DNA of 64,000 bases from NCBI GenBank assembly GCA_009746045.1, contig RPFO01000253.1, positions 789,720 through 853,719 of the forward strand, given 5' to 3'. Origin of the DNA: Mesostigma viride (Eukaryota > Streptophyta > Mesostigmatophyceae > Mesostigmatales > Mesostigmataceae). The notes below the pieces were generated by a model. The model was not told the origin of the DNA, ran no database searches, and saw only the letters and a program-made list of their open reading frames with translations. Below are positions 3,534 to 44,271 of the stretch, one piece after another; within the stretch, counting starts at the first letter, position 1; every line of letters starts with the position of its first letter. A program made the position numbers and the translations under genes.

Positions 3534-4149
3534 AGTTGTAAGAGTGAGGATGCCACGAATTCCGCCATGGTTCTTGCAGGAAGTTGCCTTTATTAATAAC
3601 AAGGAAACACAGACGTAAGTCACGTCACTTCCAAGACTGCACGCAGCACAGGCGACAGGGTCGCAGTGCCAAGAGAACGTGCACGCAAGAACTAGCGTCC
3701 CGGTGCGACCAAGTCACACATATAGGTTGTTAGGGACGCGTCCAAGTACTCAGCTGTACTGTCACAGCTGAACTGTCAATCAATTGATTACACAGACTCT
3801 GGCACGCCTTTGGCGCGCAGATCTATCAATTGTCCATACGGCTAGTCCTGTGGACCTATCCGTACACTACTCAGCATCAATTGTCTCATAGGTCCTGGCG
3901 CGCTACAGTGCGGTACCTATCAATTGACCATCAAGTCCTGTACAAGTCCTGTCAACGTCCTGCGGACTATCAAAGTGACACTTGTACATCCTGTGTCCGT
4001 ACGCGCCCACAGTGGCGCGCCGGGTACTGTCGGCACAGCCTAGGAAACGTCATAACTTTTACGTTCCTTAACCAAATGAGGCGTTCAAGGTGCCGTTGGA
4101 AAGAGCGTAACAATCTCTATCCATCTAACGTAAATCCTTTACGTTAACT
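3534..4149 (-). repeat. 3' LTR of copy A
   Basis: 616 bp. It differs from the partner at 10736-11351 at only a handful of sites, for example one G in the GCGGTACC region and TTCCTT versus TCCCGT near the outer end. It holds four CAATTGA motifs and an AATAAAG near the internal edge that could serve in 3'-end formation. Confidence 0.95.
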
Positions 4150-5099: not shown

Positions 5100-8000
5100 T
5101 TAGACAGCTTGCTGAGATGGGTCCATCAGAGACTGAAGAACCTTGTATTGCACTGCTGCCTTCTGCACTAGCTTGGTCAAAGCATCAGCAGGATTGTCAA
5201 CCCCAGGGATATGCTCAATATTGGCCAAGGAGGACAACTCCTTAAGAAGGAGATAATCCAAGTCCCTACTTCTGGCCATCTGCCTGTGCACAAACTGCAC
5301 CATCCCCATGGAGTCTGTTTTTAGAAGAGTGGTAACCTGAAGTGGCCAAGGAGTGTTAGAAGTCATCTGATGAAGCAACTCCTTCAGATAAAGGCTTGTG
5401 TGAATGCCTTCACAAATAGCCCTGCATTCTGCCACATCACTGCTGACAGCCACCCGTTTGTGCAGGCGACTAAACCAGCTCACCAAACTCCCCAGGCCTT
5501 CCTGTCTGAGCACAAAGAGCCCTGCAGCCCTGCCCCTGACCTTGGAGACCTGCCTGCTGTCCATTGAGCTATCCACATACAGCTCCATGCAAATGGGTTG
5601 TGATAAATCCACTGCAGACAACAGAATGCCAGATGAAGCCCTGACCTGATCAGCCACCTTGGCAGACCCTAGCTCCACCAGCATGTCATCAGGCAACCTG
5701 GCTATGACCATAAGGTCTGGCCTGGAAATGCCTGCCACCCAAGCAACCATGCCCCTCACCATGGGACACAGTGCCTGTGTGATGGTTGGAGGAAGCTTGC
5801 TAATGAGGGTCTCTTGATAATCATTGCCCCCCACCAGCAGCATACGCCATTCCCCCCCTTCTTCACCAGTGTGGCCTCCATGCCCACAAACAGCAGAGGC
5901 TCATTCTCCACCTGCCATTGCTCCCTACCCAGAGGAAACTTGGACTTAATGATGGAGATCAGCTCCTTAAGCCACGACGTGGGAGCTATCAGATGTAGGT
6001 CATCCCCGTGCAGCGAAGCATACACTGGCAGGCCTTCCCATTGCCCCAGAAACAGACAGGGGTCTACAGGAGAGACCTTCAAGTTGCAATGCTCCTTCAG
6101 GAAACGGTTGAGAGTCTCCCTCCAGATTATTGGACTTGACCTCAGGCCCTCCAGGCCCTTGAGGATTTTAAGGAACTCCGTGTGGATGTCCCTTTTCCAT
6201 ACAGCAGGCACCCTAACATAGAAAGGCGTCTTGCCCTCCCACTTTTCCTGTGCCACATCTGCATCCCCTCCAGAAATGCCCTCTTGAAGTCTACCACCAC
6301 TGAGCCATAGTCCAAGCCCTTGTTGAGAAGGCCTAGAAATACACACAGCAGCAGCCTCCAAGTGTCATGCAGCATGCCAGGGGTATACAACTCCTCAGCA
6401 GTGCACTCACCAGTACCCTTGAACTCATTCAGCACTGGCCTGACATGTGGTACCTTGACCCCGTCCACCTCCTTCATCTTGATGACAAACTTGAGCTTGA
6501 GTAGACGTCGTGCAGGAGGCAGGTCATTGACAGGTTCCACGCATTTCTTGGAGATCCAGTCCTCCCCAGATTTAATCAGACCCAGTGTGACCTGGGGACA
6601 CATAATGGGAGAGGACATGAGCTTCACCAGGCCTTGGTAGTTGATAGGGCTGTGTCCAGCAAGTGAGTGAGGACCAATGCCCAAACTGCTTGGATGACTA
6701 GCAGCTGGCAGTATGAGGTCATCAACCAAGGGCTCCTGCCCCTGGCACACTTGCACACGCTTAACCGTCCTGGTTACTGCACGTGATAGGTGAGTGGTCC
6801 TGAAATTAATCAGTGGGACCTGACCAGCCCCTTCCTTAGTCAGGAGAGAGGACGTGATCACTACTCCATCCTGGCATAGGAAATTCTGCCCCAGAAGAGC
6901 AGGTCCTTGATAGCCCTCCAAGACACAAAAGCAGTGTCCTGTCCAAGGATAGGAATGAATACCTCACCCAGTACCTTCACGTGTACCCCGCCACTGAAGT
7001 CAGACACAAACTGATAGCTGGGTTCAGACATGCTGTACCCTGCTGCAGCCCTGGTCCCAATGATGGAAACCTGAGAATTAGTGTCTACCTCTAAGGCAGT
7101 GTCCAGCCCCAGATTGCCATGCCACCTGAGCTTGGCTACCTTGGGCTGCTTCTTGGCCTTTGTAGAGCCCCAATCAATCCAGCCAAACTTGTCCCCCTGG
7201 GCTTGGTTAGTGCCTTGGGCTTGACAGTTGACTCCCCAGCTGTTGACCTTGCAGCCTGTTCAACAAGTACCTCTGCAACCTGGCCAGGGCTGACAGATTC
7301 CCCTGCAACAGATGTGGTCGTTGCGTCAGTGATGTCACTTGGGACCTGAAAATCCTGCAGATCCTGTGAGCCTTGTGCCTGACTGCCCTCATTCATCAGG
7401 TTAGGCTTGACATATGACCAACTCAGCCGGTGCACATGCTTTGGTTCGTCCTCCATGCTGACCAAGCATGCGTGGCTAGCTTCATCAACCTGGGTAACCA
7501 CCCCAGGACTCCAGCTACCACGTTTGCCATAAAGGCTAGGTTCCTTCCAAGCTAGGACCTTCTGACCCACTTGTGGCTCCAGCATCTTCCAACCCCGGTC
7601 CTTCTCCCTCAGCTTGGCAAAGGTGACATGTGCAGCATGTTTCCAGCCCTCCAGCACATGTGGTGGGCACAGGCCATGATATAGACCCATTGGGCTGACA
7701 GCAACTCCATCATAGTAGAAGTTAACCCTGCTGTTCAGCTGCTGCTCCACGTTCCTCAGCCATGCACTCCTGACAAGTGCAGGTGCAGACAAGGGTACCC
7801 AGTCTTCAGAGATGATCAATTTCTTGACCTCCTGGATTGCCCTCTCGATAGCACCCTGCTGCCCATGAGCCTCCCTAGGTGTAACCAGCAACTCAGGAAG
7901 GGTAGGATCACCCTTGAGATGCTGAAACTGCATGTCCACCTGGATCCTTGTGGTAGGAAACTTGGCTCTTACATTCTGCAGGGCAGCCAGCAAGTACCTG

Positions 8001-8723
8001 TTCTTCATAGAAGGTAAATGCTCTAGCACCTTGTATTTCGTGTACCTGTCCACGCACACCAACAGTTGCATGCCCCTGATGTGTTGGATATCACACTGCA
8101 GATCACCAATGCTCTGAGGTAGAGCTTTGGCATGTGATTTCCTGGGCTTGTTGGAGGACAACTGGCACTTACACCGTGAGGCAGCTTGCTGACACGCCTT
8201 AAGAAGGGGTGCCCTGCCCATACGGAAGGCAAAGTTGTTTGACAGAGAAGTGGCATGCCCAAACATGTTGTGGATTCGGGCACCCAACTCCTGGTACACA
8301 GAGGAAGCAGTCCCTGGCACAGTCAGGACTGTGCTGTCAGGTTGTCCAGCATCACCATGCTGACTTCCATCCTGTTCTGACTCAGAGCCTGAGTCACCCT
8401 GCTCATGCCCAACACCTGGACCGCCAGCAGGGACCACATGCATACCACCAGAGGCGCCTTCACACCCCTCTGTGGTTGTACATTGGTTTCTCTCAAAATG
8501 AGAGGTCCACCCTCGTGCCCAGCACGAGGATGCATAGGGTCAGACATACTTACAGCTGCATCAGCTGTCAAGGACGTCTTCATAGGAACCTGTACCTCTC
8601 CAGGTGACCTGGGGCCACCCTGAACCTGGAGATCACCCTCTTGTTGCCCAGATATAAAATCTGCATTGGAGCACCTGGCCTCCCCCTGGGTGAATTAAGG
8701 TGTGTAGGGGTTGCCTCAGACAG
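5100..8723 (-). CDS. pol: pol of copy A: integrase, protease, reverse transcriptase, RNase H (frames broken)
   Basis: Follows the gag TGA at 8726-8724. Domains in order on the minus strand: integrase with an HNMFGH...C..C zinc site near 8270-8165 and a DDE core (D in CDIQH, D in VDMQF, E in QQGAIERA) to about 7830; a basic C-terminal part to about 7430; a retropepsin-like domain with VDTNSQVSII at about 7070-7090 and LLGQNFL near 6890; RT with HGDD at 6010-5999; RNase H with YVDSS, AECRA, TDSMG and ADALTK, ending at TAA 5102-5100. Putting the protease after the integrase is not the Copia order. Apparent single-base losses lie near 8690, 7150 (GGG to GG) and 6260 (same site as in copy B). Product if intact: about 1200 residues. 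Confidence 0.85.
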
Positions 8724-9994: not shown

Positions 9995-10711
9995 CTAGTA
10001 GTCAAGGCCCCGGAAATCACAGTACTCGTAGGTATACTCAGGATCCTCCATATCCGGCGTGTGTGCCGGACCTGCACCGGTATGTATTAAAACCGGTGTG
10101 CTTCCCGTCGCGAAAGTTGCGCGCGCCCGACGCGCGACGAGGCGCAGAGGATGAGTAAAAATGGATAACAATTCCCACCCTGCGGGAATCCACTCTCGCA
10201 GAGATGCGAGAAAAGCCACCAGGTTAATAAGAACCTGGCGTTCGCGACTGCGTACGCCGCGTGTGAGCAGCGACAGCAACGCGAGATCTTGAAATAAATT
10301 TGTCGACACCGCCGGCGCGCCCCCCGTGCGTAGCGATGCCCAGTTTTGTAAGTTTCTCTGGTAACCGGTGAGCGAAGAGATGGCGTTGTCCAGCTCCTCG
10401 ATGGCAGTGGTGATTTCGTTCACCGACCGCAAACCTCCCCGCACCTGGACCGTAAATTGCGACAAAATGTTGCGAATGGTGTCCAACGGCGTGCGGATAG
10501 CCGGCACCAGCTGCGGCAAATCGGGGTCCTCGGGGTTATCCCCGAGCAATGGAAGAACTGCGCGCTGCCGACGATGAAGTTCGTCGAGCGAGATCGTGAC
10601 TTCGTCGAGCAATTGCTGCCACGACGGCGCAGTCGGTCTTGATGGAGGACCAGCCGGCGGAGCGGCTATTTCCTCATCGGTGGGAATCCGGAATTCTTCA
10701 GAATTTGGCAT
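9995..10711 (-). CDS. ORF0 of copy A, unknown helix-rich protein, 238 aa (intact)
   Basis: Uninterrupted from ATG 10711 to TAG 9995, placed between the 5' LTR and gag. Pro-rich N-terminus (residues 8-32), then predicted long helices: a heptad-like stretch around residues 45-125 and a hydrophobic LINLVAFLASLREW segment near 180. The C-terminus ends in acidic/aromatic EYTYEYCDFRGLDY, conserved in copies B and D. No known domain was recognised. It could act as an accessory capsid, assembly or RNA-handling factor, but this is only a guess from position. Confidence 0.8.
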   Translation of the reverse strand: MPNSEEFRIPTDEEIAAPPAGPPSRPTAPSWQQLLDEVTISLDELHRRQRAVLPLLGDNPEDPDLPQLVPAIRTPLDTIRNILSQFTVQVRGGLRSVNEITTAIEELDNAISSLTGYQRNLQNWASLRTGGAPAVSTNLFQDLALLSLLTRGVRSRERQVLINLVAFLASLREWIPAGWELLSIFTHPLRLVARRARATFATGSTPVLIHTGAGPAHTPDMEDPEYTYEYCDFRGLDY

Positions 10712-10735
10712 CTTTTTAACGAGGCGTGTAATACG

Positions 10736-11351
10736 AGTTGTAAGAGTGAGGATGCCACGAATTCCGCCATGGTTCTTGCAGGAAGTTGCCTTTATTAATA
10801 ACAAGGAAACACAGACGTAAGTCACGTCACTTCCAAGACTGCACGCAGCACAGGCGACAGGGTCGCAGTGCCAAGAGAACGTGCACGCAAGAACTAGCGT
10901 CCCGGTGCGACCAAGTCACACATATAGGTTGTTAGGGACGCGTCCAAGTACTCAGCTGTACTGTCACAGCTGAACTGTCAATCAATTGATTACACAGACT
11001 CTGGCACGCCTTTGGCGCGCAGATCTATCAATTGTCCATACGGCTAGTCCTGTGGACCTATCCGTACACTACTCAGCATCAATTGTCTCATAGGTCCTGG
11101 CGCGCTACAGTGCGGGTACCTATCAATTGACCATCAAGTCCTGTACAAGTCCTGTCAACGTCCTGCGGACTATCAAAGTGACACTTGTACATCCTGTGTC
11201 CGTACGCGCCCACAGTGGCGCGCCGGGTACTGTCGGCACAGCCTAGGAACGTCATAACTTTTACGTCCCGTAACCAAATGAGGCGTTCAAGGTGCCGTTG
11301 GAAAGAGCGTAACAATCTCTATCCATCTAACGTAAATCCTTTACGTTAACT
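10736..11351 (-). repeat. 5' LTR of copy A
   Basis: 616 bp, AGTT...AACT on the minus strand. The outer end forms the TAACGTAAA-GGA-TTTACGTTA hairpin. Immediately downstream of the LTR the internal sequence starts CGTATTACACGCC. The first seven bases (CGTATTA) recur at this place in copies B, D and E and in family H, so they are probably part of the primer-binding site. They do not start with the usual TGG. Confidence 0.95.
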
Positions 11352-11909: not shown

Positions 11910-12525
11910 AGTTAACGTAAAGGATTTACGTTAGATGGATAGAGATTGTTACGCTCTTTCCAACGGCACCTTGAACGCCTCATTTGGTTAAGGAACGTAA
12001 AAGTTATGACGTTTCCTAGGCTGTGCCGACAGTACCCGGCGCGCCACTGTGGGCGCGTACGGACACAGGATGTACAAGTGTCACTTTGATAGTCCGCAGG
12101 ACGTTGACAGGACTTGTACAGGACTTGATGGTCAATTGATAGGTAGGCGCACTGTAGCGCGCCAGGACCTATGAGACAATTGATGCTGAGTAGTGTACGG
12201 ATAGGTCCACAGGACTAGCCGTATGGACAATTGATAGATCTGCGCGCCAAAGGCGTGCCAGAGTCTGTGTAATCAATTGATTGACAGTTCAGCTGTGACA
12301 GTGCAGCTGAATACTTGGACGCGTCCCTAGCAAGCTATATGAGTGACTTGGTCACACCGGGACGCTAGTTCTTGCGTGCACGTTCTCTTGGCACTGCGAC
12401 CCTGTCGTCTGTGCTGCGTGCAGTCTTGGAAGTGACGTGACTTACGTCTGTGTTTCCTGTTATTAATAAAGGCAACTTCCTGCAAGAACCATGGCGGAAT
12501 TCGTGGCATTCTTACCCTCACAACT
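11910..12525 (+). repeat. 5' LTR of copy B
   Basis: 616 bp. The promoter side shows four CAATTGA motifs at 12133, 12177, 12228 and 12274 (spacing 44-51 bp), several GCGCGCC blocks, and CTATATGAG near 12334 as a possible TATA-like box. AATAAAG near 12466 is a candidate 3'-end signal. The first 25 bp form a 9-bp stem hairpin. Confidence 0.95.
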
Positions 12526-13426: not shown

Positions 13427-14543
13427 ATGGCTGAGGGACGCCGTAGCAAGGGTCCAGCCAGTGGGAATAATAATGGGGGTGCTGGTAGTGGAACCGCTCA
13501 CGTAGATGACGTGGGGCTTACCGGAGAGATTACCAACCTTCCTCACAATAATAATAATGCACAAGCTATTCATGGCTTTGATCTTACCACACAGGGTCTT
13601 TTAATTGTCAATCAGTTGCAGCCTGTAACCTCAGACTCCAAGCCTAAGCAGGCTGAAGAGTTTGTGGAGGGATTGGAAGGGTTCCCTAGCTTGTACGGTG
13701 GTACAAATTACTATCAAATCTGGATAGGCAGTAGCACTTTTGGCAAGTGTACTGACCAGATTAAGGACCTAACCAGGGAGTGCAAAAGGCCAATAAGGCC
13801 TGGGCACTGTACGTGGCTGAGCTGAAGGAGCTGCTGGAAGACCAACGAAGAAGGTCGGCATCCATTGGCAGGACAAGTATCAAGGGTGGGAGGTCAAGGG
13901 GGACCTGATCCAGAACTTTCTCAACTATTGTAAGATGGTTGAGGAGGGCAGGGCTCACGGCTTTAATGTCGCTGATAACATAGCCCTAACCAACTGGCTC
14001 AAGGTTTCTGGGCTGGATAAGGCGACACGTGGCTCCTTAAAAGTCATGTGTGCCCCACACTCTACCCTGAAGGCCTACAAGGTCATCATTAAACAAGCTC
14101 TCGAGGCAGAGGAGCTGTTTGAGGGTGGAGTGCCAGCAGTGAAGGCTACCCAGGCAGGCGGGCGTACCCAGGGTGGCTCCAAGACGTCTGAGGCTGACCG
14201 AAGCCAAGGAGGGCGTAGGGGCAACCATAACAAGCGCAAGGGAGATCATTCACCTGATTCTGACAGGAGGTCACACTCCAAGTCGGTGTTCAGGCGGGTG
14301 GGTGGTCAGCCCAAGCAGGGCAACGCGTCTGACAATGGGGGCAGTGGCCAGGGCAAGTCCAAGATACAATGCTACCTGTGCAAGGGGTGGGGGCACATCA
14401 AGAAGGAGTGTCCCAGCTTCAAGAAGTCCCAGGGCCAGGGCAGCAACAAGAATAACAACAACAACAAGAAGAAGAACAACAACAAGTCCCAGGCAGGCCA
14501 GCCTTCAAAGGGCAGTCAGCAAGAAGACAACAAGGAGCAGTGA
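13427..14543 (+). CDS. gag: gag of copy B (two frame breaks), ending in a readthrough-type UGA
   Basis: ATG at 13427 (MAEGRRSKG). Capsid-like region followed by the zinc knuckle CYLCKGWGHIKKEC near 14370-14412 and a Lys/Asn/Gln-rich tail. Compared with copy A, one base is lost near 13783 (AAGAAGG to AAAAGG) and one near 13852 (CGAAAG to CGAAG). The terminal TGA at 14541-14543 is followed by CTG. The frame then stays open for 47 codons to the first pol Met at 14685 and on into the integrase. No initiation signal is needed for pol if the stop is read through. Confidence 0.85.
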
Positions 14544-17500
14544 CTGTCTGAGGCAACCCCTACACACCTTAATTCACCCAAGGGGGAGGCCAGGTGCTCC
14601 AATGCAGATTTTATATCTGGGCAACAAGAGGGTGATCTCCAGGTTCAGTGTGGCCCCAGGTCACCTGGAGAGGTACAGGTTCCTATGAAGACGTCCTTGA
14701 CAGCTGATGCAGCTGTAAGAATGTCTGACCCTATGCATCCTCGTGCTGGGCACGAGGGTGGACCTCTCATTTTGAGAGAAACCAATGTACAACCACAGAG
14801 GGGTGTGAAGGCCTCTGGTGGTATGCATGTGGTCCCTGCTGGCGGTCCAGGTGTTGGGCATGAGCAGGGTGACTCAGGCTCTGAGTCAGAACAGGATGGA
14901 AGTCAGCATGGTGATGCTGGACAACCTGACAGCACAGTCCTGACTGTGCCAGGGACTGCTTCCTCTGTGTACCAGGAGTTGGGTGCCCGAATCCACAACA
15001 TGTTTGGGCATGCCACTTCTCTGTCAAACAACTTTGCCTTCCGTATGGGCAGGGCACCCCTTCTTAAGGCGTGTCAGCAAGCTGCCTCACGGTGTAAGTG
15101 CCAGTTGTCCTCCAACAAGCCCAGGAAATCACATGCCAAAGCTCTACCTCAGAGCATTGGTGATCTGCAGTGTGATATCCAACACATCAGGGGCATGCAA
15201 CTGTTGGTGTGCGTGGACAGGTACACGAAATACAAGGTGCTGGAGCATTTACCTTCTATGAAGAACAGGTACTTGCTGGCTGCCCTGCAGAATGTAAGAG
15301 CCAAGTTTCCTACCACAAGGATCCAGGTGGACATGCAGTTTCAGCATCTCAAGGGTGATCCTACCCTTCCTGAGTTGCTGGTTACACCTAGGGAGGCTCA
15401 TGGGCAGCAGGGTGCTATCGAGAGGGCAATCCAGGAGGTCAAGAAATTGATCATCTCTGAAGACTGGGTACCCTTGTCTGCACCTGCACTTGTCAGGAGT
15501 GCATGGCTGAGGAACGTGGAGCAGCAGCTGAACAGCAGGGTTAACTTCTACTATGATGGAGTTGCTGTCAGCCCAATGGGTCTATATCATGGCCTGTGCC
15601 CACCACATGTGCTGGAGGGCTGGAAACATGCTGCACATGTCACCTTTGCCAAGCTGAGGGAGAAGGACCGGGGTTGGAAGATGCTGGAGCCACAAGTGGG
15701 TCAGAAGGTCCTAGCTTGGAAGGAACCTAGCCTTTATGGCAAACGTGGTAGCTGGAGTCCTGGGGTGGTTACCCAGGTTGATGAAGCTAGCCACGCATGC
15801 TTGGTCAGCATGGAGGACGAACCAAAGCATGTACACCGGCTGAGTTGGTCATATGTCAAGCCTAACCTGATGAATGAGGGCAGTCAGGCACAAGGCTCAC
15901 AGGATCTGCAGGATTTTCAGGTCCCAGGTGACATCACTGACGCAACGACCACATCTGTTGCAGGGGAATCTGTCAGCCCTGGCCAGGTTGCAGAGGTACT
16001 TGTTGAACAGGCTGCAAGGTCAACAGCTGGGGAGTCAACTGTCAAGCCCAAGGCACTAACCAAGCCCAGGGGGACAAGTTTGGCTGGATTGATTGGGGCT
16101 CTACAAAGGGCCAAGAAGCAGCCCAAGGTAGCCAAGCTCAGGTGGCATGGCAATCTGGGGCTGGACACTGCCTTAGAGGTAGACACTAATTCTCAGGTTC
16201 CATCATTGGGACCAGGGCTGCAGCAGGGTACAGCATGTCTGAACCCAGCTATCAGTTTGTGTCTGACTTCAGTGGCGGGGTACACGTGAAGGTACTGGGT
16301 GAGGTATTCATTCCTATCCTTGGACAGGACACTGCTTTTTGTGTCTTGGAGGGCTATCAAGGACCTGCTCTTCTGGGGCAGAATTTCCTATGCCAGGATG
16401 GGGTAGTGATCACGTCCTCTCTCCTGACTAAGGAAGGGGCTGGTCAGGTCCCACTGATTAATTTCAGGACCACTCACCTATCACGTGCAGTAACCAGGTC
16501 GGTTAAGCGTGTGCAAGTGTGCCAGGGGCAGGAGCCCTTGGTTGATGACCTCATACTGCCAGCTGCTAGTCATCCAAGCAGTTTGGGCATTGGTCCTCAC
16601 TCACTTGCTGGACACAGCCCTATCAACTACCAAGGCCTGGTGAAGCTCATGTCCTCTCCCATTATGTGTCCCCAGGTCACACTGGGTCTGATTAAATCTG
16701 GGGAGGACTGGATCTCCAAGAAATGCGTGGAACCTGTCAATGACCTGCCTCCTGCACGACGTCTACTCAAGCTCAAGTTTGTCATCAAGATGAAGGAGGT
16801 GGACGGGGTCAAGGTACCACATGTCAGGCCAGTGCTGAATGAGTTCAAGGGTACTGGTGAGTGCACTGCTGAGGAGTTGTATACCCCTGGCATGCTGCAT
16901 GATACTTGGAGGCTGCTGCTGTGTGTCTTTCTAGGCCTTCTCAACAAGGGCTTGGACTATGGCTCAGTGGTGATAGACTTCAAGAGGGCATTTCTGGAGG
17001 GGATGCAGATGTGGCACAGGAAAAGTGGGAGGGCAAGACGCCTTTCTATGTTAGGGTGCCTGCTGTATGGAAAAGGGACATCCACACGGAGTTCCTTAAA
17101 ATCCTCAAGGGCCTGGAGGGCCTGAGGTCAAGTCCAATAATCTGGAGGGAGACTCTCAACCGTTTCCTGAAGGAGCATTGCAACTTGAAGGTCTCTCCTG
17201 TAGACCCCTGTCTGTTTCTGGGGCAATGGGAAGGCCTGCCAGTGTATGCTTCGCTGCACGGGGATGACCTACATCTGATAGCTCCCACGTCGTGGCTTAA
17301 GGAGCTGATCTCCATCATTAAGTCCAAGTTTCCTCTGGGTAGGGAGCAATGGCAGGTGGAGAATGAGCCTCTGCTGTTTGTGGGCATGGAGGCCACACTG
17401 GTGAAGAAGGGGGGGAGTGGCGTATGCTGCTGGTGGGGGGCAATGATATCAAGAGACCCTCATTAGCAAGCTTCCTCCAACCATCACACAGGCACTGTGT

Positions 17501-18166
17501 CCCATGGTGAGGGGCATGGTTGCTTGGGTGGCAGGCATTTCCAGGCCAGACCTTATGGTCATAGCCAGGTTGCCTGATGACATGCTGGTGGAGCTAGGGT
17601 CTGCCAAGGTGGCTGATCAGGTCAGGGCTTCATCTGGCATTCTGTTGTCTGCAGTGGATTTATCACAACCCATTTGCATGGAGCTGTATGTGGATAGCTC
17701 AATGGACAGCAGGCAGGTCTCCAAGGTCAGGGGCAGGGCTGCAGGGCTCTTTGTGCTCAGACAGGAAGGCCTGGGGAGTTTGGTGAGCTGGTTTAGTCGC
17801 CTGCACAAACGGGTGGCTGTCAGCAGTGATGTGGCAGAATGCAGGGCTATTTGTGAAGGCATTCACACAAGCCTTTATCTGAAGGAGTTGCTTCATCAGA
17901 TGACTTCTAACACTCCTTGGCCACTTCAGGTTACCACTCTTCTAAAAACAGACTCCATGGGGATGGTGCAGTTTGTGCACAGGCAGATGGCCAGAAGTAG
18001 GGACTTGGATTATCTCCTTCTTAAGGAGTTGTCCTCCTTGGCCAATATTGAGCATATCCCTGGGGTTGACAATCCTGCTGATGCTTTGACCAAGCTAGTG
18101 CAGAAGGCAGCAGTGCAATACAAGGTTCTTCAGTCTCTGATGGACCCATCTCAGCAAGCTGTCTAA
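14544..18166 (+). CDS. pol: pol of copy B: integrase, protease, reverse transcriptase, RNase H (frames broken)
   Basis: In frame with gag across the TGA. Integrase zinc site HNMFGH...CQQAASRCKC near 14998-15105; DDE residues in LQCDIQH (about 15170), QVDMQF (about 15330) and QQGAIERA (about 15415); C-terminal integrase region to about 15860; Ser/Thr/Ala-rich linker. The retropepsin-like domain follows, with D-T-N at 16182-16190 and LLGQNFL near 16372-16392. RT has FKRAFLEG near 16980, GLEGLRSSPIIW near 17113 and HGDD at 17257-17268. RNase H has YVDSS, AECRA and ADALTK, with TAA at 18164-18166. One-base losses: 16197 (TTT to TT, not in copy A), about 17004 (shared with A) and about 17450. Protease after integrase is the notable feature. 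Confidence 0.88.
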
Positions 18167-19114: not shown

Positions 19115-19731
19115 AGTTAACGTAAAGGATTTACGTTAGATGGATAGAGATTGTTACGCTCTTTCCAACGGCACCTTGAACGCCTCATTTGGTTAAGGAA
19201 CGTAAAAGTTATGACGTTTCCTAGGCTGTGCCGACAGTACCCGGCGCGCCACTGTGGGCGCGTACGGACACAGGATGTACAAGTGTCACTTTGATAGTCC
19301 GCAGGACGTTGACAGGACTTGTACAGGACTTGATGGTCAATTGATAGGTAGGCGCACTGTAGCGCGCCAGGACCTATGAGACAATTGATGCTGAGTAGTG
19401 TACGGATAGGTCCACAGGACTAGCCGTATGGACAATTGATAGATCTGCGCGCCAAAGGCGTGCCAGAGTCTGTGTAATCAATTGATTGACAGTTCAGCTG
19501 TGACAGTGCAGCTGAATACTTGGACGCGTCCCTAGCAAGCTATATGTGTGACTTGGTCGCACCGGGACGCTAGTTCTTGCGTGCACGTTCTCTGGGCACT
19601 GCGACCCTGTCGCCTGTGCTGCGTGCAGTCTTGGAAGTGACGTGACTTACGTCTGTGTTTCCTTGTTATTAATAAAGGCAACTTCCTGCAAGAACCATGG
19701 CGGAATTCGTGGCATTCTCACCCTCACAACT
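19115..19731 (+). repeat. 3' LTR of copy B
   Basis: 617 bp, preceded directly by the polypurine tract AAAGAAAAGAAGGGATTGG. Differences from the 5' LTR include TATATGTGTG versus TATATGAGTG and CTCACCCTC versus CTTACCCTC. Confidence 0.95.
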
Positions 19732-19895: not shown

Positions 19896-20579
19896 TGTAA
19901 CGAACCCATCCGGGTCGTGCGAAAGATCCTATTGTTAAGGTAGGTTATTCCCGGTTTCTTGGCTAACCACGACCACTCTCTGGGAGTGGGATTAACGGAA
20001 CAGGCGTGGCTTTAGGCCTGTTACGGCTCGCGGTGATTAATATTGCATTAATCTACACAACCTACATTTAGGATAGAGCTACCAAATGCAGTTGGAATTA
20101 TGCCCCAGGTTCAGACAGGTGATACTGACACACTCATTTCATTCCGAACCAAGAGGACGAGACTCTCGTCCTCGGACCAATTTCACCTAGGTCTGCCACC
20201 AAGCTGGCAAGGGGCGCCGACATGGCGCCGACCTTCCAGAGAATTCCAAAACATGCAGTCCACACAAGATCCTCGGGTCGACATCGACCCTCGCCAGGCT
20301 ACAGAATCCACGCATGAGTACAATATCTCAACCAGCTATAAAGTACGCAGCGCGGCGCGACTGCACCGGCCTCTAGAAGATCTCGTACATCAACCTAGGC
20401 CAAAAATAATCGGTCCGAATCACACAAACTATCATAGTTCCATACAAAAGTCCTGACCAAGGGACAGTTCCCAAATTAAGTCCCGAAATGAGTCCCAAAG
20501 TCCTACGGACTATGACAACAAGCCAAAATACATAATTTATTCCATTGTTGCGCCCGTTCCAAGGGTCGGGTTCGCAACA
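19896..20579 (-). repeat. 3' LTR of Gypsy element C
   Basis: 684 bp. Nearly identical to 61292-61991 except small indels: a ~16-bp shorter TAGGTTATT repeat area near 19937, GATACTGACACAC versus GATAACACAC near 20121, and TAGAG versus TAGTAGAG near 20075. Orientation comes from the adjacent polypurine tract on the internal side. Confidence 0.9.
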
Positions 20580-20603
20580 CTCCTCCCCCTCCCCGGGGGA
20601 CGG
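20580..20603 (-). promoter_or_regulatory. Polypurine tract of Gypsy element C
   Basis: On the minus strand CCCCCGGGGAGGGGGAGGAG abuts the TGTTGCG start of the 3' LTR. It is the expected plus-strand primer for LTR retrotransposon replication and fixes the element's orientation. Confidence 0.8.
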
Positions 20604-23503: not shown

Positions 23504-24960
23504 AAGGTAGTACAGCTATGCTACGCCCTGGCTATGTTCAGATTACTTGCCCACGCTCCTTGCTATGATATGCTCACATGGGTCTTATTGCACCCACAGT
23601 TTGCCGGATCGTTAGCCTGTACCTTTTAGCTAGCCGCGCCCGATTGCAGCTGTGGCATGCCTTTGGCATGAAGGAGACTGGGGGTCTCTGCCCTTTCTCC
23701 TGTAGTGCACACACAGGGATTAAAAGCACTTTGGTGCTCCGTGACTCCCCAACGGGAGCATGCACGAGTTTAATTAATTAATTAATGGGGGTACTATGTC
23801 CCAGCCCATGTTCACCCATCAGACTAGTAAAACCAATTCCCCCAGAACTTGCCACACAGGGGCAAGCCTTGACGTAGTCAAATAATGGAATCCGTCCAGC
23901 TATCGCCGTACCACCGCCGACGCTCCTGGTCAGCGGCCATGGCCTCGCCTGTCCCGCACCATCTGCTGCTGCTGGTGCGCCCACCGATAGACTCGCTCAC
24001 CGTGCTCCGTGGCCTGGGGGCCCCGAGTCCCTGGGAACCTCAGGAGATCCCCCTCGAAGGCCCACTGCTCCGGCTTGCCAGTGCCACGGCGTCCGGACAG
24101 GGACAAACGGTCCCACGCGTTGGGAGGCCACATTGAGAGGAAGGCGGTCATGTACTCCGGGAAGGTGAACAGAAGGGACTTGACGTTTCTGTCCACTACC
24201 CCACAGCGGTAATCCGCCACATATGTTTCCCCCATACCCAGCATCACGGTGGCCACCTGTCCCAGATCGACCTCCGTTGCCGGCGGACCCAAGCGATCAT
24301 CCATGAAGTCGGGGGCGACGCCGTGCAGGAACGCCAAAGCGTTTGGAGCCAGCTTGGGGGGCTTCACCACACGGGGGAAACCGGCCACATGGTAATCCCA
24401 ATGATCGCCCTCCGGGGCGTAACGCGTCACCCCATCCACACTGAACGGAAAGGGCTCACCGGGGGTGATCTGCCGGGGCACCCGGTGGGGGATGTGGGGA
24501 TACAGGTCCATGTTATATTATAGGTTTCAGCTCGCAGTCACATGGAAATAATTAATGATTGTGTGCCGGTACTTAGCCATTTTGTGGTTCGAGGCGTTCG
24601 GGTCAATTCAGCGCATTGGGACTTAGCCGTTTTGAGGTTCGGCTGAATTTTGGCTTGTGTGATCCACAACGATTTAAGTTACGCTGTGTGCGTTATGCCT
24701 CGTGAGTTACGCCCTAGACTTTGGCTGTGCGGCACTGGTCCGGTACTGAGGTGCGGACTAGGATTCTGGGTACTGCCGGCTGGCGTGACAAGTGGCGAGA
24801 TACTGGTGTGTGTCGATTGGTCGGTACTCGGCTGGTGTGTTGTAACGGAGATGTGTAACGGAGATGCGTTCCCAGGCTTGCGTCGGTGCCTAGCGCCGCA
24901 GGCTAGCCTAGCCGCCTGACAGACGATGATGATCCAAAAGCCAGCATTGTGTTGCGGCGG
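23504..24960. repeat. Tandem duplicate, right copy (more complete)
   Basis: Starts GGTAGTACAGCTATGC, as at 22462 in the left copy. It includes the LINE 3' UTR and tail (to about 23785), element C 3' untranslated sequence, the ORF3 C-terminus and the first ~450 bp of LTR-F. This appears to be the parental arrangement. Confidence 0.65.
23930..24510 (-). CDS. Gypsy C ORF3, C-terminal segment (about 193 codons to the stop)
   Basis: Last part of an unrecognised long ORF downstream of pol in element C, ending at TGA 23932-23930. It is cut from its upstream part by element F, whose GTCCA target duplication overlaps codons VD; ignoring F, the frame continues exactly from 31310. Sequence features: HIPHRVPRQITPGEPF near the junction, many aromatic and Pro residues, a globular look, and a basic Gln-rich end (WAHQQQQMVRDRRGHGR). 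No known domain was seen. A condensed copy exists at 22877-23158. Confidence 0.65.
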
Positions 24961-25093
24961 TCCAACGGTTGTTGCTGCTATGCTGGCAATGGCTATGGTT
25001 GCGCTGGTAAATTAAGCTGGGGGCTTGGCTCTGAGTTTGTAACCTGATTACCGTAAAATTATCATTTAATAAAATTCGAACTCGATTTTAACA
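24511..25093 (+). repeat. 5' LTR of element F
   Basis: 583 bp with canonical TG...CA ends, unlike the other Copia-like families here. Internal sequence follows directly as TGTACTAGGACGGGG. Part of the LTR is also present in condensed form within 23230-23500. Confidence 0.95.
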
Positions 25094-25133
25094 TGTACTA
25101 GGACGGGGTTAATTAATAAGGAAAAACGTAGCA

Positions 25134-26107
25134 ATGTCGGATCAAGAACAAGAAGAGACGGATTCGAGAAAGCGTACTGGGTGGAAGGATTTAAGAAATG
25201 AGAAGAATTTGATAGAGCTGTGCAAAACACGAGTCGGGACAATTCCTCTTGATGCGGCAGTGACATTGGTAGAGGATTTCTGTGACAGGTTTGAGGCGTT
25301 TGTGGCGGATCATGCAGATAAAACCGAGGATCTGTATGGGCTATTCCGGGATGCCGGAATGTTTAGAGCCGACAACGCCATTCTAGTAAATTGCCTGCGC
25401 TCCTGCCGTGACGAGAAAATCGAGGGCGCTGCAATTGGAGGTAGGTTGCGTGCAGCACTTCTTGAATCGAAAGCATCTGCCAAGTCTCGTCATGTTGGCA
25501 TTTATAATTGGGTGCCGAAGCGTCCCTACACACTCGACCTTCTCGCTTTGAGAAATGCGAGAAACGAGAGTGTAAAGGATGGCATTCCGGTGGTGGAACT
25601 GGCGGTGGTGGACCGTTATGTTCGCAATGCCAAGGACCTTAATTTCCAGAATGCCATGGCAGCTCTCAAGCGTGAGAAAGCCGAGGATGATCTCAATAAG
25701 GCGATTGAGGTTATCACGGGCATTGTCGAGGGTGAGGAGAGGGACATGGTGGCCCAACTGCGGGCCCAAGGTAAGCTCAATGAGCTGGGTCTGATTTCCC
25801 CTGCATTACCGCCTGTCGCTGTGAATTCCATTCCTTCTTCTGGTGGTGCCCAAGGTGGTGCTGCTAAAGCGCCGGATGGGGGCAAGGTGGCCGCCATTGC
25901 GGGCGGTGGTGGCTCTAGCGGCGCGGGGCCCAGCGGGCCTCGGGGCAATGGGGGCCCGATGCGTAGGGGCAATAAGGGCAGCTTCAGCCGAGCGCAGCGC
26001 ATGCCTGGGAAGCGATGGCAGCAAGGTAGACAGCAGCCATACCCGCAGCAGCAGCAGCATGCACAACAGCCTGCAGCTGCGTCGCCGTATCAGCAGCAAC
26101 AGCGCTC

Positions 26108-26148
<41 letters not shown>

Positions 26149-26360
26149 GTGCACAGCCGGCGGTGCATGGGGCATGCTTTGTGTGTGGGAAGTCGGGACA
26201 CATGGCAGCCAATTGCTATCACAGGCACAAGGACACTCTCCAGGCACGCAGCAACGCCAACTCGCAAGCACCAGCGGTGTGTCACAGGTGTGGGCAGCCA
26301 GGGCACTTTGCGAGGGACACTCACCTGTGCCCAGCGGCCCAGGGCGGTGGCCGTAGGTGA
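25134..26360 (+). CDS. gag: gag of element F, 408 aa, ending UGA CUA
   Basis: Intact ORF from ATG 25134 to TGA 26358-26360. Residues 1-220 form the capsid-like helical region. Then come a Gly/Ala/Pro-rich linker, a poly-Gln stretch (about residues 305-340), and two zinc knuckles: CFVCGKSGHMAANC (about 348-361) and CHRCGQPGHFARDTHLC (about 384-400). The stop is followed by CTAG, the best-known leaky UGA context, and the same frame is open from CTA onward into pol. A strong case for translational readthrough producing Gag-Pol. Confidence 0.9.
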
Positions 26361-29300
26361 CTAGGTGAGGTTGGCATGCGGGCTGGTGCAGGGGAGGCCA
26401 GCTCGACCCCCCAGGTGTACTCACCCTACCTGGGTGCTCAGGTGGCGGTGCTAGCAGGCACTAGGGAGAAGGGGGGCCACCTGGAGCATGGGACAGCTGC
26501 AGAAGGGGGAAGGGCAGTGTCTCAGGGGATGGGGAATGAGTGGGTTGGAGGCGCTGCAGGGGGGCACACCGCAGCGGGCGGGCCGCCGGTAGGTGGTACC
26601 TCACCAGACCCTAGTTCAGCACATGTGAATGGTGCGGCGTGCGGTGAGGCAGCCGGGTCGCTCAGTGTACTTAACATGGCCACACGGTTACACAAAGCAC
26701 TAGGGCATGGGCATGCGGGTGAGGAGTGGGCAGCCATGCTAGGGTTCACAGACTTAGTGGATATGTGCAAGCAGGTGTGGTTAAGGTGTCGCAAATGTCA
26801 GGAGCGGGCACCTAAACCGCACAAGTTCCATGCACGTAGGCCAGAGTTTGAGCGAGGTGTGGTGCAGTGTGATGTATTCATGTATGACGACAGAGACTAC
26901 GTGCTTGCAGTGGGCAGGTTCTCCAGGTACAAGGTCATGGTGCCACTTGAGCGCAAGCTGAAGGAGCACTTGTGTGATGCATTGCGTCTCCTCAGGTCCA
27001 AGTTTGGTGTGGCATCTGTGTTGGAGTGCGATCAGCAGTTTGAGTGCTGTGTGGGTGAGCCGGGTGTGGGGAAGATAGAACTTGCTGGGGTAGCTGACCA
27101 CGAGCACCAGGGTCTTGTCGAGCGCCACATACAGACATCGAAGCAGGTGATGGCATGCATGGAGAAGATGAGAACAGGCTCGTATCGTGAGAGGCTGGTG
27201 ATCTGCAATGAGATAGAGCAATGTCTCAACAACCGTGTAATGGTCAAGGTGTTGGGTGGGCAGGTGGCAGTCACGCCTAAGGGAGTGGAGATGGGCTTGT
27301 TGTCACCTGAGGCTGTGGAAGAGTACAGGGATTATTTGAGCGATCGTTACGTGCGCATGGTAAAGATGGACCTGCGACGTGGACAGGTTTATGTGCCGTG
27401 CGTGAACGCCAGGGTCTGGGCCTACGCGGAGGGCAGTCATGGAAAACGGGGCCTATGGAGAGGTCCCGGTGTGGTCAAGGAGATCGATCCTGATCACATG
27501 CTTGCTTCGGTAGCGCTAGAGGACAGTTGCTACGACAAGCTGCTAGCGTGGAAACACCTGCGCCCCTACTATGACGGGCTGGGGCCGCCAGACCCACCCG
27601 CTGAGGAAGGTGTTAGGGACCCCAGTGTGCAGGCTGGGGGTGAGGCGGGGGATCCCGGGGCTGCAGGGGGGGTGAGGGAGGGGGGTGGGCCTGATCAACC
27701 TACTCGCTCCCTTTCGCCGGAAGCTGGGTTGCCACCTTCCAAGGGCGGTCCCGCTAGCGTGGGGTCGGGCGGTTCGGGGGTTGCCCCAGCCGTTGACGAC
27801 CAGGAGAAGCAGCGCGCCGCGGTACTAGCCCGCCTAGTGGAGCGCCTGCAGGAAGCTCGACGCGCTGCCACGGTGGGCGAGCAGCGGCAGTTGGGGGGCA
27901 ACATCTCGCGGGCCGGCAAGGAGCGGGTGGCCGAAGGTGGGATGGTACCACGGTCCGGTGAGGCGGGTGAGCCAGCCGAAGGTGGGGTTGCACGGGCCGG
28001 CGATGCTGGGGCATTGACCGCAGGTGCGGGGCAGCAGGCTGGTGGCGTTGGCGGGTTGGCCGACGCGGGGCCTATATTGCCGAGTGAGGGCGATAGCCCC
28101 ATGGACGACAGCGAGGCTGTCGAGGAGAGAGGTGAGCCAGGTGAGCTGGTGGCTGCGGTCTCTAAGCTTGCCAACTGGTATTCGGACGGGCTGGGTAGTT
28201 GTCGATTGGAAGTGGACACTGACGCGGTGGTGTGCTTGCTGGGTGAGGGAGTAGCCAGGCATCTGCCGTGCACTGCGTCCAGGTGGAGGTATGTGGAGGA
28301 CTTCTCCGGGTTAGTGAGGATGCCGGTGCGGGGTGAGGTAATGCTGACGATCTTGGGGAGGAGACGCCGTTTTGCGTGCTCGAGGGGTATGATGGACCCG
28401 CCATTTTGGGACTTCCTTTCCTGGACCATCCTGATGTGCGGATTCAGAGCTCATTGCTAACCCGAGTAGGTCACGGGTCGATAGAGCTACAGTCTTACAA
28501 GTCAGTCGAGCCTCTCAGTCGCATTTGCAGCACAGTGGCTAGGCTAGCAGCACTGTCGGGTACGGAGGGTGTAGCGTGGGGCGCTGATCTCCCGCCAGCT
28601 GCTGACCTGGTTATGCCTGCATTACTGCATCCCAACAGCCTAGGAATCACTGAGAGGGACATAGCCGCACATTCCCCGATCACATTCCCTGAGCTTGTAC
28701 TGCAGATGTCAACGCCTAGTGGGTTCTCGAGCTGGTGGTGTGCATTCCGTAAGGCACTTGAGGAGTGGCAGGGCTACGGGGTGTATGAACCGCTTGACAC
28801 GGTGCCGAAGGGGGCTAGGGTGCTTCCGCTGAAGATGGTGCTGTCCCACAAGGTGAAGGCAGGTGTGGAGATCTGCTACGTGAGGCCGGTATCACAAGAG
28901 TTTGCAGGTACTAGCCCGCTGGCCAAGGAGGAGCTCTACACCCCAGGGATGGCATGGGACACGTTCAGGATGGTTAGCATGATTTTTCTTAGCTTTCTGG
29001 ACGAAGGCAAGGACTACGCGTGTGCGTCCATTGATGTCAAGCGCGCATTCCCTAACTCTAGCGAGGAAGTGGCGCAAGAGGTGTGGGAGGGTACTCCGCC
29101 TCTAGTGGTGCAGACGCCGCCGTTCTGGAAGGAGGTGGTCACGTCTGAGTTCATGGGTCTGTGCAAGGCTATAGAGGGTCTGCAGAGCGCGTCGATTGTT
29201 TGGAGGATAACCCTCATGCGTGCGTTGGGTGAGATCGCAGAGTTTGAGGTATCTCCCTACGACCCATCGTTGTTCGTGGCGCGGATGCCGTCTGGTCCTA

Positions 29301-30252
29301 TGTTTGTACAACTGCATGGGGATGACTGCGTGTCATTGCTTCGCGGTCAGCCTTGCATGCATTCTATGCTGACATTGGGCGGCGGTTCCCAGTGGGTGAG
29401 TTGCAGCAATTGGGGCCGCAGACGCCACGGGTGTTTTGCGGGGTGGTGCAAACCCTGCGGGTGGTGTCGGGTAAGCACCGGATGCACTTGGGTATTCCTG
29501 ACAAGTACAGGGAGGAGCTCATGCGCGATGTGGAGGAGTTGTGCGCCAAGGGTTTGTGGAGCAGATTGCGTGGCAAGCTCGGCTGGATGGCAGCGGTGTG
29601 TGGGCCTGACCTGCTGGTGTTAAGCAGGACTGTGGATGAGGTGTTGGCTCTCGTTTCTCCGTCTGTGATCAAGCAGTATGTTGCTGAGAGCCAGGGTGTA
29701 GTACTTTCTGGTTTGTCTCTTTCTCAGCCGATTGTGTTGCATTGCTTTGCTGACACGTCTGGCGAGGGCAGGGAGCTCACCAAGACGAGAGCTCGCATGG
29801 GCGGCTTGTTTGTGCTCTCCAACCCCAAGGGCAATGGTTCGCTCTGTGGGTGGTACTCTAGGTTGTGCCGCAGGGTGGCAGTTGGATCGGATACCAATGA
29901 GTGTCGCGGGGTGTGTGAGTGCATCAAGGCGTCCCTGTATCTAGAGCAATTTCTGCGCTGGATGGGCAAGTGGCTGGATGCTCGTTTGGTACTGACCACG
30001 ACTGTGCATACCGACAGTCAGCCGCTTGTGAGTTTCATTCTCAACAGCCTGTCCAGGACGCGCGACCTGGATTTCCTACTACTCAAGGAACTGTCATACG
30101 CAGTGAGCGTGCTTCATCTACCTGGGAAGCTCAACCCGGCTGATGCGCTGACCAAGCTGTTTGCTGGGGCGCGCGACCAGTATCGCCTCCTGCGGATGGT
30201 CATGGGGGGCTCTCTCGGGGATCTGCAAGGACTGCTGGATGGTTTGATGTAG
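26361..30252 (+). CDS. pol: pol of element F: integrase, protease, reverse transcriptase, RNase H (two frame breaks)
   Basis: In frame with gag across the UGA. Integrase: zinc site HKALGH...CRKCQ near 26692-26805, DDE residues in QCDVF (about 26870), ECDQQF (about 27027) and GLVERHIQ (about 27115). A long Gly/Ala/Pro-rich linker follows (27590-28150). The retropepsin-like domain has D-T-D at 28215-28223 and ILGLPFL near 28405. RT has IDVKRAF near 29030, AIEGLQSASIVW near 29170 and HGDD at 29315-29326. RNase H has TNECRG, HTDSQ and ADALTK. TAG at 30250-30252. Frame shifts near 28360 and 29350 are single-base indels. Same domain order as A/B and H. Confidence 0.88.
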
Positions 30253-30726: not shown

Positions 30727-31309
30727 TGTTATATTATAGGTTTCAGCTCGCAGTCACATGGAAATAATTAATGATTGTGTGCCGGTACTTAGCCATTTTG
30801 TGGTTCGAGGCGTTCGGGTTAATTCAGCGCATTGGGACTTAGCCGTTTTGAGGTTCGGCTGAATTTTGGCTTGTGTGATCCACAACGATTTAAGTTACGC
30901 TGTGTGCGTTATGCCTCGTGAGTTACGCCCTAGACTTTGGCTGTGCGGCACTGGTCCGGTACTGAGGTGCGGACTAGGATTCTGGGTACTGCCGGCTGGC
31001 GTGACAAGTGGCGAGATACTGGTGTGTGTCGATTGGTCGGTACTCGGCTGGTGTGTTGTAACGGAGATGTGTAACGGAGATGCGTTCCCAGGCTTGCGTC
31101 GGTGCCTAGCGCCGCAGGCTAGCCTAGCCGCCTGACAGACGATGATGATCCAAAAGCCAGCATTGTGTTGCGGCGGTCCAACGGTTGTTGCTGCTATGCT
31201 GGCAATGGCTATGGTTGCGCTGGTAAATTAAGCTGGGGGCTTGGCTCTGAGTTTGTAACCTGATTACCGTAAAATTATCCTTTAATGAAATTCGAACTCG
31301 ATTTTAACA
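30727..31309 (+). repeat. 3' LTR of element F
   Basis: 583 bp, preceded by the purine-rich GGGAAAAAGCGGCTGG and followed by the TSD GTCCA. Confidence 0.95.
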
Positions 31310-35112: not shown

Positions 35113-35578
35113 AGTTAGATGAGATGCTTAGGCTGACACACGGATTTCCGGCCTGCGCGCCGCGTATTGCCTACCGCGGCTGAGCGGGACACCTCAGTAC
35201 TGTACGGCAGGGTGTACGGTACTGAGGTGTCATGTGGACCGATGTGCGGTTAGTGCCAGACTGTGCCTAGACTAGCTCGACCCGCCAGACCCGGGTTATC
35301 CGGTTCTGGACGGGCCGAGTGTAGTTGATGCTAGTGACGTGGTCGCATGGCATTGCAGTGTACAGTTGTCCACTGGTCGTGTGCTGCAGGTAGCACCGCC
35401 ATAGGCATATAGGCGTAGCACTGGGGAGTGCCGCAGCACCCGAGTTTGCCCAGACGTTCCATTCTGAGCCCTCAGCTTCCATTGCTCTCTCATTGCTCTC
35501 TCATTGTATTATTGTAATACAATCATCATTCGCTCTCAGCTTTCGCAGTTGTTCGTCGTCCCTAGTCTCCATCCAACT
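35113..35578 (+). repeat. 5' LTR of element G
   Basis: 466 bp with AGTT...AACT ends. Contains a near-palindrome GGTACTGAGGTGTC / GACACCTCAGTACTGTAC near 35188-35230 and ends in a pyrimidine-rich tract. Confidence 0.95.
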
Positions 35579-35622: not shown

Positions 35623-37585
35623 ATGGCTTCCAACAACGGCAACAACGGCAACAACAACAAGGGGAAGGCGCCTGCCAGGCGCACCTCACCCCGCCTTTCG
35701 CCGGAGGGCACGCCCTCCACCAACGATGCGAGGGTGACGCCCAACGTCACCTTCCGCACGGTGGTCGCTGACCACCCAGGCGTCGGGGCCCGCAGGTGGG
35801 GCCCGGCGCCCGGGGATGGCGAGCGGGCGGCCGTTTGCCACTGGCGGTTCGTCCGCCATGGCACCTGGGGGGCAGGTCCCCCGGGCACGAATTCCCCCGT
35901 CGCAGGTGACGGGGGTCGTGAGCGGAGTGATTCCTCGAGGAGGATGGGGAGGTGCAGCCTGCGAGGCCTCGGCCTTCGCTCGAGCTTTCGTCACAGACAC
36001 CTGCGACGTCTGGCAACCTTTCCGTGGGCCGACAGATGGCCACCATGGACATTGACCGGTATGGGGAACATGTTCCGCCCCCGGTCGCGTTCGGGCGCCC
36101 ACCCCATTTTCTCCCCATTGGGGAGGACGACATCCCGGCGTTCATTTCGGTGAACGGCCGGATCTACGTCAACGTTTTCAGTGCTTCCAGATGAGGAGAT
36201 ACACGCGATAGAGGTTCATCGGGTGCAAACGCTGATCGAGGGGCGTTGAGGATGCAGTCCCACTGGTTCAGGTGGCGGTTTGGCTGTACTGTTTCGCCAA
36301 TCGGCCGAGGCACAACCCCGGCACTGTTGATCAGTGGGCGTCCAGGCAGCGCCAGAGAGAGGCGCTGCGCGTGGTCGCCCGACAGGAGATCGCGCTGACT
36401 CCGTTGGGGCCGTGGCCCCAAGTCACGCCAGTTGGCTGGGGCCCGGATAGGCGTGAGGCGGCTGCGATGCCGCCTGCGACGGAGCGCGGGGCGGCAGACG
36501 CCCCCAACACGCCCATGGGTGGTGAAGCCACCCAGGACCCTCTGGCAGGTCAGAGGGTCCAACCTCAGCCGCAGGCTCCCCCGCCCAGCGTGGGGGGCCA
36601 GGTGGCTGAGGAGGCCACCGGGGTCGCAGGGACCCCGGCGGCGACACAAGCGCCCGGGGTCGCAGGGACCCCGGCAGCGACGCCGGCGCCTCCGGCGCTG
36701 GCGGGGGATGCAGCCCCCATGGAGGGTGTCACGGGCACCTCCAGCGGCTCTGGGGGGCAGGCCCCCTCTAGCCGCAACAAGGACAAGGCCCTGGCAGGGC
36801 CGGAGGGGCCTCAGGGTCCCACCGCAGCTGGGCAGCAACCAGCACTGCTGGAGGGCGACCTGGAAGGTCGCGACTTCATCACCCTGGGTGATGAGGCCGT
36901 GTGGCGTGCCATACAGACAGCCACAGCCTCCTTCCGTGGGCTGGCCGACAGGAGCCAGCAGATGCACGTCGCGGAGGCGGGCAGCCTGGTGTGTGCAATC
37001 ATCACGCACATCCTGGGCCTGCCCAACCTCCAAGCGGGCACACGTAGGGTGTGCGACGACCTGCTGCCTGCCCTGCAGGCTCTCCTCTCAGGGAGGAGGG
37101 TGCAGGGCAGCAGGGTGCGTCTGGTGCGTTTGCTGGAGCTCCTGCACAACGCCATCCTGAGAGGGGCGGGTAGGTGGCTGCCTACCTGGCTGCATCATGA
37201 TCTTACTAACCCTACTGACGATGAAGTGTCCCTCTCTCCCACCTTCCATGATTGGGAGGAGGCCCGCAGCAGGAGGCGGGAAGTGACACACACTCACACC
37301 CCCACCCAGCCCACCCCTATGTTGTCTAACCCTCCTACACAGCCCATGTTTGCCCATCCTGCTCAGCTCACTCAAGTAGCACTTCCCTCTCAGCAGGTCT
37401 CTCCTGTGAATGCTGCAGCAGCAACACCATCTTCTCCCTCTCCCCCTGCATCCCCCTCTAGGTTGCCCACTTACAATGAAAACCGTCCTGTGGATAGGAT
37501 TAATGTCAGGGGGCTGCCTGAGGGGTATACTAGGGAGCAGGGGAATCATGCACTTCTCTCTCTCAGCTGGCTAGGGAGGAACTGA
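35623..37585 (+). CDS. 5' ORF / gag extension of element G (frames broken)
   Basis: Starts at ATG 35623 (MASNNGNNGNNN) and is open in patches in all three frames, with single-base breaks near 35790, 35930, 36190, 36250 and 37560. The longest piece, 36272-37585, begins in WLYCFANRPRHN, passes through Pro/Ala/Gly-rich repeats (GVAGTPAATQAP, GVAGTPAATPAP), and has a helical block of about 120 residues (LGDEAVWRAIQTATASF ... RLVRLLELLHNAIL). At its end the frame appears to join gag (DRINVRGLPEGYTREQ). It occupies the position of ORF0 in families A and H but no similarity is visible. Function unknown. Confidence 0.55.
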
Positions 37586-38284: not shown

Positions 38285-38329
<45 letters not shown>

Positions 38330-43802: not shown

Positions 43803-44271
43803 AGTTAGATGAGATGCTTAGGCTGACACACGGATTTCCGGCCTGCGCGCCGCGTATTGCCTACCGCGGCTGAGCGGGACACCTCAGTACTGTACGGCAG
43901 GGTGTACGGTACTGAGGTGTCATGTGGACCGATGTGCGGTTAGTGCCAGACTGTGCCTAGACTCCAGCTCGACCCGTCAGACCCGGGTTATCCGGTTCTG
44001 GACGGGCCGAGTGTAGTTGATGCTAGTGACGTGGTCGCATGGCATTGCAGTGTACAGTTGTCCACTGGTGAGGTGCTGCAGGTAGCACCGCCATAGGCAT
44101 ATAGGCGTAGCACTGGGGAGTGCCGCAGCACCCGAGTTTGCCCAGACGTTCCATGCTGAGCCCTCAGCTTCCATTGCTCTCTCATTGCTCTCTCATTGTA
44201 TTATTGATAATACAATCATCATTCGCTCTCAGCTTCAGCAGTTGTTCGTCGTCCCTAGTCTCCATCCAACT
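43803..44271 (+). repeat. 3' LTR of element G
   Basis: 469 bp, preceded by GAAAGGAAAACATAATGGG (polypurine tract) and followed by GAATG. A few differences from the 5' LTR, for example CCAGCTCGACCCGTCAG versus TAGCTCGACCCGCCAG. Confidence 0.95.

Follow-up and report, generated by a model that had tools for sequence, protein, structure and literature searches.

A 64,000-nucleotide stretch of Mesostigma viride DNA (contig RPFO01000253.1, positions 789,720 to 853,719; hereafter the window, meaning the whole stretch) carries five long terminal repeat (LTR) retrotransposons, A, B, F, G and H, which very probably belong to a new lineage whose pol is ordered integrase (IN), retropepsin-like protease (PR), reverse transcriptase (RT) and RNase H (RH), with no protease between gag and integrase. 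The initial annotation of the window had read this order in A/B, F, G and H, had seen no D-T/S-G motif between gag and integrase, and had proposed an undescribed lineage. The order is confirmed, and strengthened by open native frames in the genome (H, F and a relative of F termed F2, as well as G through RT); the frames of H, F, F2 and G are free of the motif in that interval; and the reading as an undescribed lineage is supported, these elements forming one RT clade (100/100) without the Copia order.

The protease-like domain was located by a pair of motifs, hxhD-T/S-x followed further along by an [IL]LG box, for which all three frames of the coding strand were scanned in every element. The pair occurs at one place per element, with the aspartate at 7085 (A), 16182 (B), 28215 (F), 40043 (G) and 53952 (H), exactly as annotated; in A and B a further register, shifted 6 residues upstream, matches as well. 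The second box, which had been described as a matching second-half motif, is present in all five elements (ALLGQNFL in A and B, AILGLPFL in F, ALLGDPFL in G, AILGQNFL in H), and its start always lies 65 residues after that of the first box. The pattern is a filter and not exhaustive, the true protease of a Gypsy element in the window being missed by it. When the H spacer was shuffled, the pair appeared in 3 of 200,000 shuffles, for a pattern composed after the sequence had been seen. Two AlphaFold models and searches of the PDB listed retropepsin-like proteases alone, with no single score strong, and the domain between integrase and RT is predicted with moderate confidence to adopt the half-pepsin fold (retropepsin, clan AA), as the annotation had anticipated. 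The first row of the alignment behind the first model was the H domain (53892–54260), and a longer H piece (53853–54314) was also searched; alignment A1 was rebuilt without one misaligned B fragment and with a shorter G piece. The sole Pfam match of the protease piece was gag-asp_proteas. Pfam scans of the broken frames of the window yielded weak matches.

The pol genes of the window copies are frame-broken, which qualifies the order observed in them. Their relatives were examined in the genome, which is eukaryotic and 440 Mb in size. The H protease piece gave 150 scored matches (of 4596 first-look candidates), all stop-free, 92–100% identical and with E <1e-88, and each queried family has at least 98 scored copies. 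Two H loci (L049 and L050) each hold one continuous IN-PR-RT-RH frame of 1190 residues, featuring the HHCC finger at residue 129, the integrase D-D-E, D-T-N (Asp at about 527), ILGQNFL at 590, the RT box HGDD at 889 and, by motif, RNase H. Single open IN-PR-RT-RH frames are likewise found in family F (L060, 1297 aa) and in F2 (L059, 1320 aa). In family G (L065), gag, IN, PR and RT share a single frame of at least 1753 residues that stops before RNase H, with the gag zinc knuckle at residue 710, the HHCC finger at 830, then the integrase, D-T-Q at about 1264 and RT at 1634. For A/B, the evidence is that of the window copies, no intact copy being available. Canonical Copia elements of the same genome follow the textbook order in the 3 of 3 scanned.

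Upstream of the HHCC finger, D[TS]x is absent from the pol frames of H, F and F2, and D[TS]G from the 829 residues that precede the finger in G (L065). The ratio of nonsynonymous to synonymous substitution rates (dN/dS, NG86 method) between F and F2 amounts to 0.105 for the protease, 0.078 for RT, 0.041 for RNase H and 0.13 for the integrase C-terminus (dS is saturated in the integrase core), rising to 0.25 in the protease-to-RT interval, 0.42 in the linker that leads into the protease and 0.78 in the pre-integrase stretch, i.e., where Copia has its protease. Between F and F2, the protease domain is under purifying selection, constrained like an enzyme, and the pre-integrase stretch is nearly unconstrained. 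The two are 78% identical in the protease, 81% in RT and 92% in RNase H; the more distant F and H share 46% in the protease, 45% in RNase H, 37% in RT, 33% in the integrase core and 20% before the integrase. A Copia protease hidden between gag and integrase was considered and rejected: no motif was seen in the frames read, no Pfam model matched and divergence is near-neutral.

Among Pfam profiles, RVT_2 is matched above its cut-off (31.6 bits) by F (32.9), F2 (45.5) and G (36.6), and below it by H (21.8, E 1.6e-4); the protease is recognised by gag-asp_proteas only, and rve is weak or missing. RVT_1, the RT type of Ty3/Gypsy and retroviruses, has no match at E<=1 in the polyproteins of H, F, F2 and G, and the same holds for gag_pre-integrs, SH3_retrovirus and Pol_BBD; for the latter, weak matches were possibly filtered, and it is present in 3 of 3 canonical controls. 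In the integrase alignment (A7), all five rows show HHCC and the D,D-E triad, H and B with C-x-C for C-x2-C, and its profile reaches the PDB with E 2.9e-4, integrases making up 57 of the 60 rows listed; hhalign was uninformative on integrase affinity. The catalytic box of RT reads HGDD in H (54230–55945), F (28337–29623) and G (40759–41298); in the host's canonical Copia it reads HVDD, as seen in four frames.

The RT tree comprises 12 rows: F, F2, H, G, four host Copia and four database rows, one of which (P0001, a Mesostigma viride protein from EukProt) is identical in its RT region to host Copia L009, which points to this alga as the probable host. F, F2, H and G form one clade (100/100), apart from the host Copia and database rows and with G outside the other three (90/84); the clade and the 8 other RVT_2 rows are separated by branch lengths of 2.01 and 0.93 (changes per column). 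This tree was midpoint-rooted for drawing only and carries a long-branch warning (P0006 with the clade). In an earlier tree that also included Gypsy and two more database rows, the then three members still grouped, deep forks were weak (36/74), and a metagenome protein, P0007, stood beside the clade (80/79) on long branches. P0003, without an RT motif match, is absent from both trees, and GypsyE, P0005 and P0007 from the 12-row tree. We call the elements a lineage with a Copia-type RT and the order gag-IN-PR-RT-RH; because the order that defines Copia was tested and not found, we do not file them as members of Ty1/Copia.

Searches for relatives outside the genome were negative. Neither the H pol (7989 scored candidates) nor the profile of alignment A4 (7986) retrieved a relative at E<=1e-3 among 5.8 billion proteins, within the word-sharing limit of the search, which returned 7 matches for the canonical Copia control L010. 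The new protease was not found in these 7 matches, the profile giving stray weak stretches only, in P0002 and P0005. No relative was found in viral or prokaryote contigs, none by tblastn against plasmids with a piece of B, and NCBIfam gave two matches only, both weak and unrelated.

Two accounts of how the order arose, neither quite reaching an even chance in our judgment, deserve to be weighed. A Copia element may have lost its own protease and captured one of Gypsy or retrovirus type together with its position directly ahead of RT, which we regard as quite plausible. The second motif speaks for such a capture, a published survey giving LLS for Copia and ILG/LLG as predominant in other proteases (PMC2774666), as do the sole Pfam match to gag-asp_proteas, the unmatched Pol_BBD and the PR that precedes RT in the window's Gypsy element. 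Against it, hhalign did not separate Copia-like from Gypsy-like affinity of the protease, with a single Gypsy protease available for comparison. It may equally well be that PR and RT were always adjacent and that integrase moved, or was separately acquired, between gag and PR, on a branch sister to canonical Copia. The long branches that set the clade apart from the 8 other RVT_2 rows are consistent with this, as is an identity of just 32–38% in IN and RT between families of the clade; the midpoint rooting, set for drawing only, the weak deep forks of the earlier tree and the long-branch behaviour of P0007 and P0006 weigh against it. More tentatively, the elements could be a deep, undescribed branch beside all known Ty1/Copia, which kept PR and RT adjacent, placed IN between gag and PR, and combined a glycine-less protease with UGA-CUA readthrough.

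The residue that follows D-T sets these protease-like domains apart from the D-T/S-G of retropepsins. Among 47 fetched loci (L019–L065), the motif is readable in 42 (all but L051, L054, L061, L062 and L063), 32 of which are close copies of H; D-T-N occurs in 33, D-T-D in 7, D-T-Q in 2 and D-T-G in none. By element, A, B and H have D-T-N, F has D-T-D and G has D-T-Q, so none carries D-T/S-G. One may argue from this that the fold was kept and the function lost, the domain serving for structure or dimerisation while a host protease, or none, matures the polyprotein. We consider this unlikely: the third residue differs between families, all of which retain Asp and Thr, the F/F2 dN/dS of the domain is that of a constrained protein, and no other protease candidate was seen. 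Moreover, three of four canonical Copia proteases of the same genome (L009, L010 and L011) have D-S-A, and only L012 has D-T-G; loss of the glycine is therefore not confined to this lineage, and the residue is dispensable in other families here. These three elements, which read D-S-A-A-S in place of D-S-G, have long open frames.

Finally, that a nested insertion, a misassembly or a chance motif in decayed copies produced the order, as the broken frames of the window might suggest, is highly improbable, given that H, F, F2 and G have open native frames, located on several contigs, and that the H protease matches are stop-free; frame decay as such is ruled out by the same open frames.

In H, F, F2 and B, gag and pol share a frame that one TGA interrupts; the letters after it are CTAG in the first three and CTG in B (14541–14543 in B, 26358–26360 in F and 52372–52374 in H; also in genomic L049, L059 and L060). 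Diverged families thus have a readthrough-like context at this junction. The exact downstream string was recovered in 28 of 32 H loci (not in L041, L043, L044 and L046), always after TGA; since the first three letters of the string are CTA, the count bears on the stop codon only. For human and mammalian genes and for Sindbis virus, a published report gives UGA CUA (G) as a readthrough consensus (PMC4973966). RNA folding downstream of the UGA gave no signal. The Candida retrotransposon Tca2 is a member of Copia. A gag-UGA-pol arrangement is known from this element (PMC2194720). From the sequence of the junctions, Gag-Pol is probably made by UGA readthrough in H, F, F2 and B; F and F2 also have an early AUG in their pol frames, at which translation may restart instead.

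Gag would thus be made alone and readthrough would yield Gag-IN-PR-RT-RH, the G copy having a continuous frame. The protease would be a half-pepsin to which each chain contributes one Asp; it would dimerise as the chains assemble into particles, excise itself and mature Gag, integrase and RT. Synthesis and integration of cDNA would then proceed in the manner of other LTR elements. With Asn, Asp or Gln replacing the usual glycine after the retained D-T, an active yet atypical active-site loop is to be expected. We infer both the protease activity and the origin of the order.

All five elements are complete, with direct LTRs and 5-bp target-site duplications (TSD), as established by self-comparison and from the flanks, and the LTR pairs are 97.9–99.5% identical, which makes these insertions recent. 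The LTR termini are AGTT..AACT in A, B, G and H rather than the TG..CA seen in F. Element A, on the reverse strand, extends from its 5' LTR (10728–11351, TSD AAACC, pair identity 99.0%) to its 3' LTR (3534–4149), with the integrase frame (HHCC, DDE, from translation) at 7136–8539 and the retropepsin-like domain at approximately 6870–7120, across two frames. The others lie on the forward strand. B has LTRs at 11910–12525 and 19115–19731 (TSD ATCCC, 99.0%), a frame that encodes integrase (HHCC, DDE) and the N-terminal part of the protease, including its Asp (14544–16289), and another with the remaining protease and the first part of RT (16190–17125). F has LTRs at 24511–25093 and 30727–31309 (TSD GTCCA, 99.5%), gag with a CCHC knuckle (25113–26360, zf-CCHC 3.2e-9, ending in the TGA before CTAG), integrase and the first part of the protease with its Asp (26361–28460), the remaining protease and RT (28337–29623, RVT_2 1.7e-7), and the end of RT with RNase H by motif (29326–30252). 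G has LTRs at 35113–35578 and 43803–44271 (TSD GAATG, 97.9%), the gag zinc knuckle and integrase in a single frame without D-T/S-G between them (37874–39505, rve 0.0031), the retropepsin-like domain spread over frames (39992–40296), and frames for RT and, by motif, RNase H (40759–42170). H has LTRs at 49115–49758 and 56952–57597 (TSD GTCGT, 98.6%), the integrase frame (HHCC, DDE; 52375–53952), aligned with intact copy L049, the retropepsin-like domain in one frame, and RT (RVT_2 4.1e-5) with RNase H by motif (54230–55945).

An extra open frame of 300–450 residues lies between 5' LTR and gag in A (9995–10915, reverse strand), G (36236–37585) and H (49757–50926); in L065 of family G it is fused in frame to gag, and in F gag begins straight after the LTR. 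A purine-rich stretch is visible by eye ahead of the 3' LTRs, and a primer binding site was not matched to a tRNA. The Gypsy-type element (44400–48701, reverse strand) shows the usual Gypsy order of protease (DTGATTSFI), RT, RNase H and integrase, and being separate it was ruled out as a nested source of the protease. An LTR-like pair of 0.7 kb (19896–20580 and 61292–61992), 96% identical, 41 kb apart and with flanks sharing AGGC, encloses F, G and H together with the Gypsy element, and seems to mark an older element that was filled when others inserted into it. At 1958–2877 there is a long array of 8-base tandem repeats, and an Rfam scan of the window gave no match.

The main LTR-retrotransposon superfamilies are told apart by, among other characters, the order of their pol domains, and a recent, multi-copy IN-PR-RT lineage indicates that a protease inside pol is compatible with amplification. 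It bears on the shuffling of integrase and protease modules among the ancestors of Copia, Gypsy and retroviruses, and a natural retropepsin-like domain with its conserved glycine replaced makes the need for that residue testable. For Copia, the closest known relatives, the survey places protease before integrase, and the present order matches none of the four integrase-position states, of five in the survey, with which it was compared (PMC2774666). The elements resemble Ty1/Copia in their RVT_2-type RT, integrase upstream of RT, terminal RNase H (by motif) and 5-bp target duplications, but differ in having PR after IN, with ILG/LLG, instead of gag-PR-IN-RT-RH. With Ty3/Gypsy and retroviruses they share an ILG-type protease directly ahead of RT, whereas integrase there usually follows RNase H, as the survey states (PMC2774666), and here lies upstream; the PR-RT-RH-IN order and RVT_1 of Ty3/Gypsy are replaced by IN-PR-RT-RH and RVT_2. 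Pol is also rearranged in Gmr1-like Gypsy elements, where IN precedes RT, but according to the survey their IN is downstream of PR (PMC2774666), while here PR is downstream of IN.
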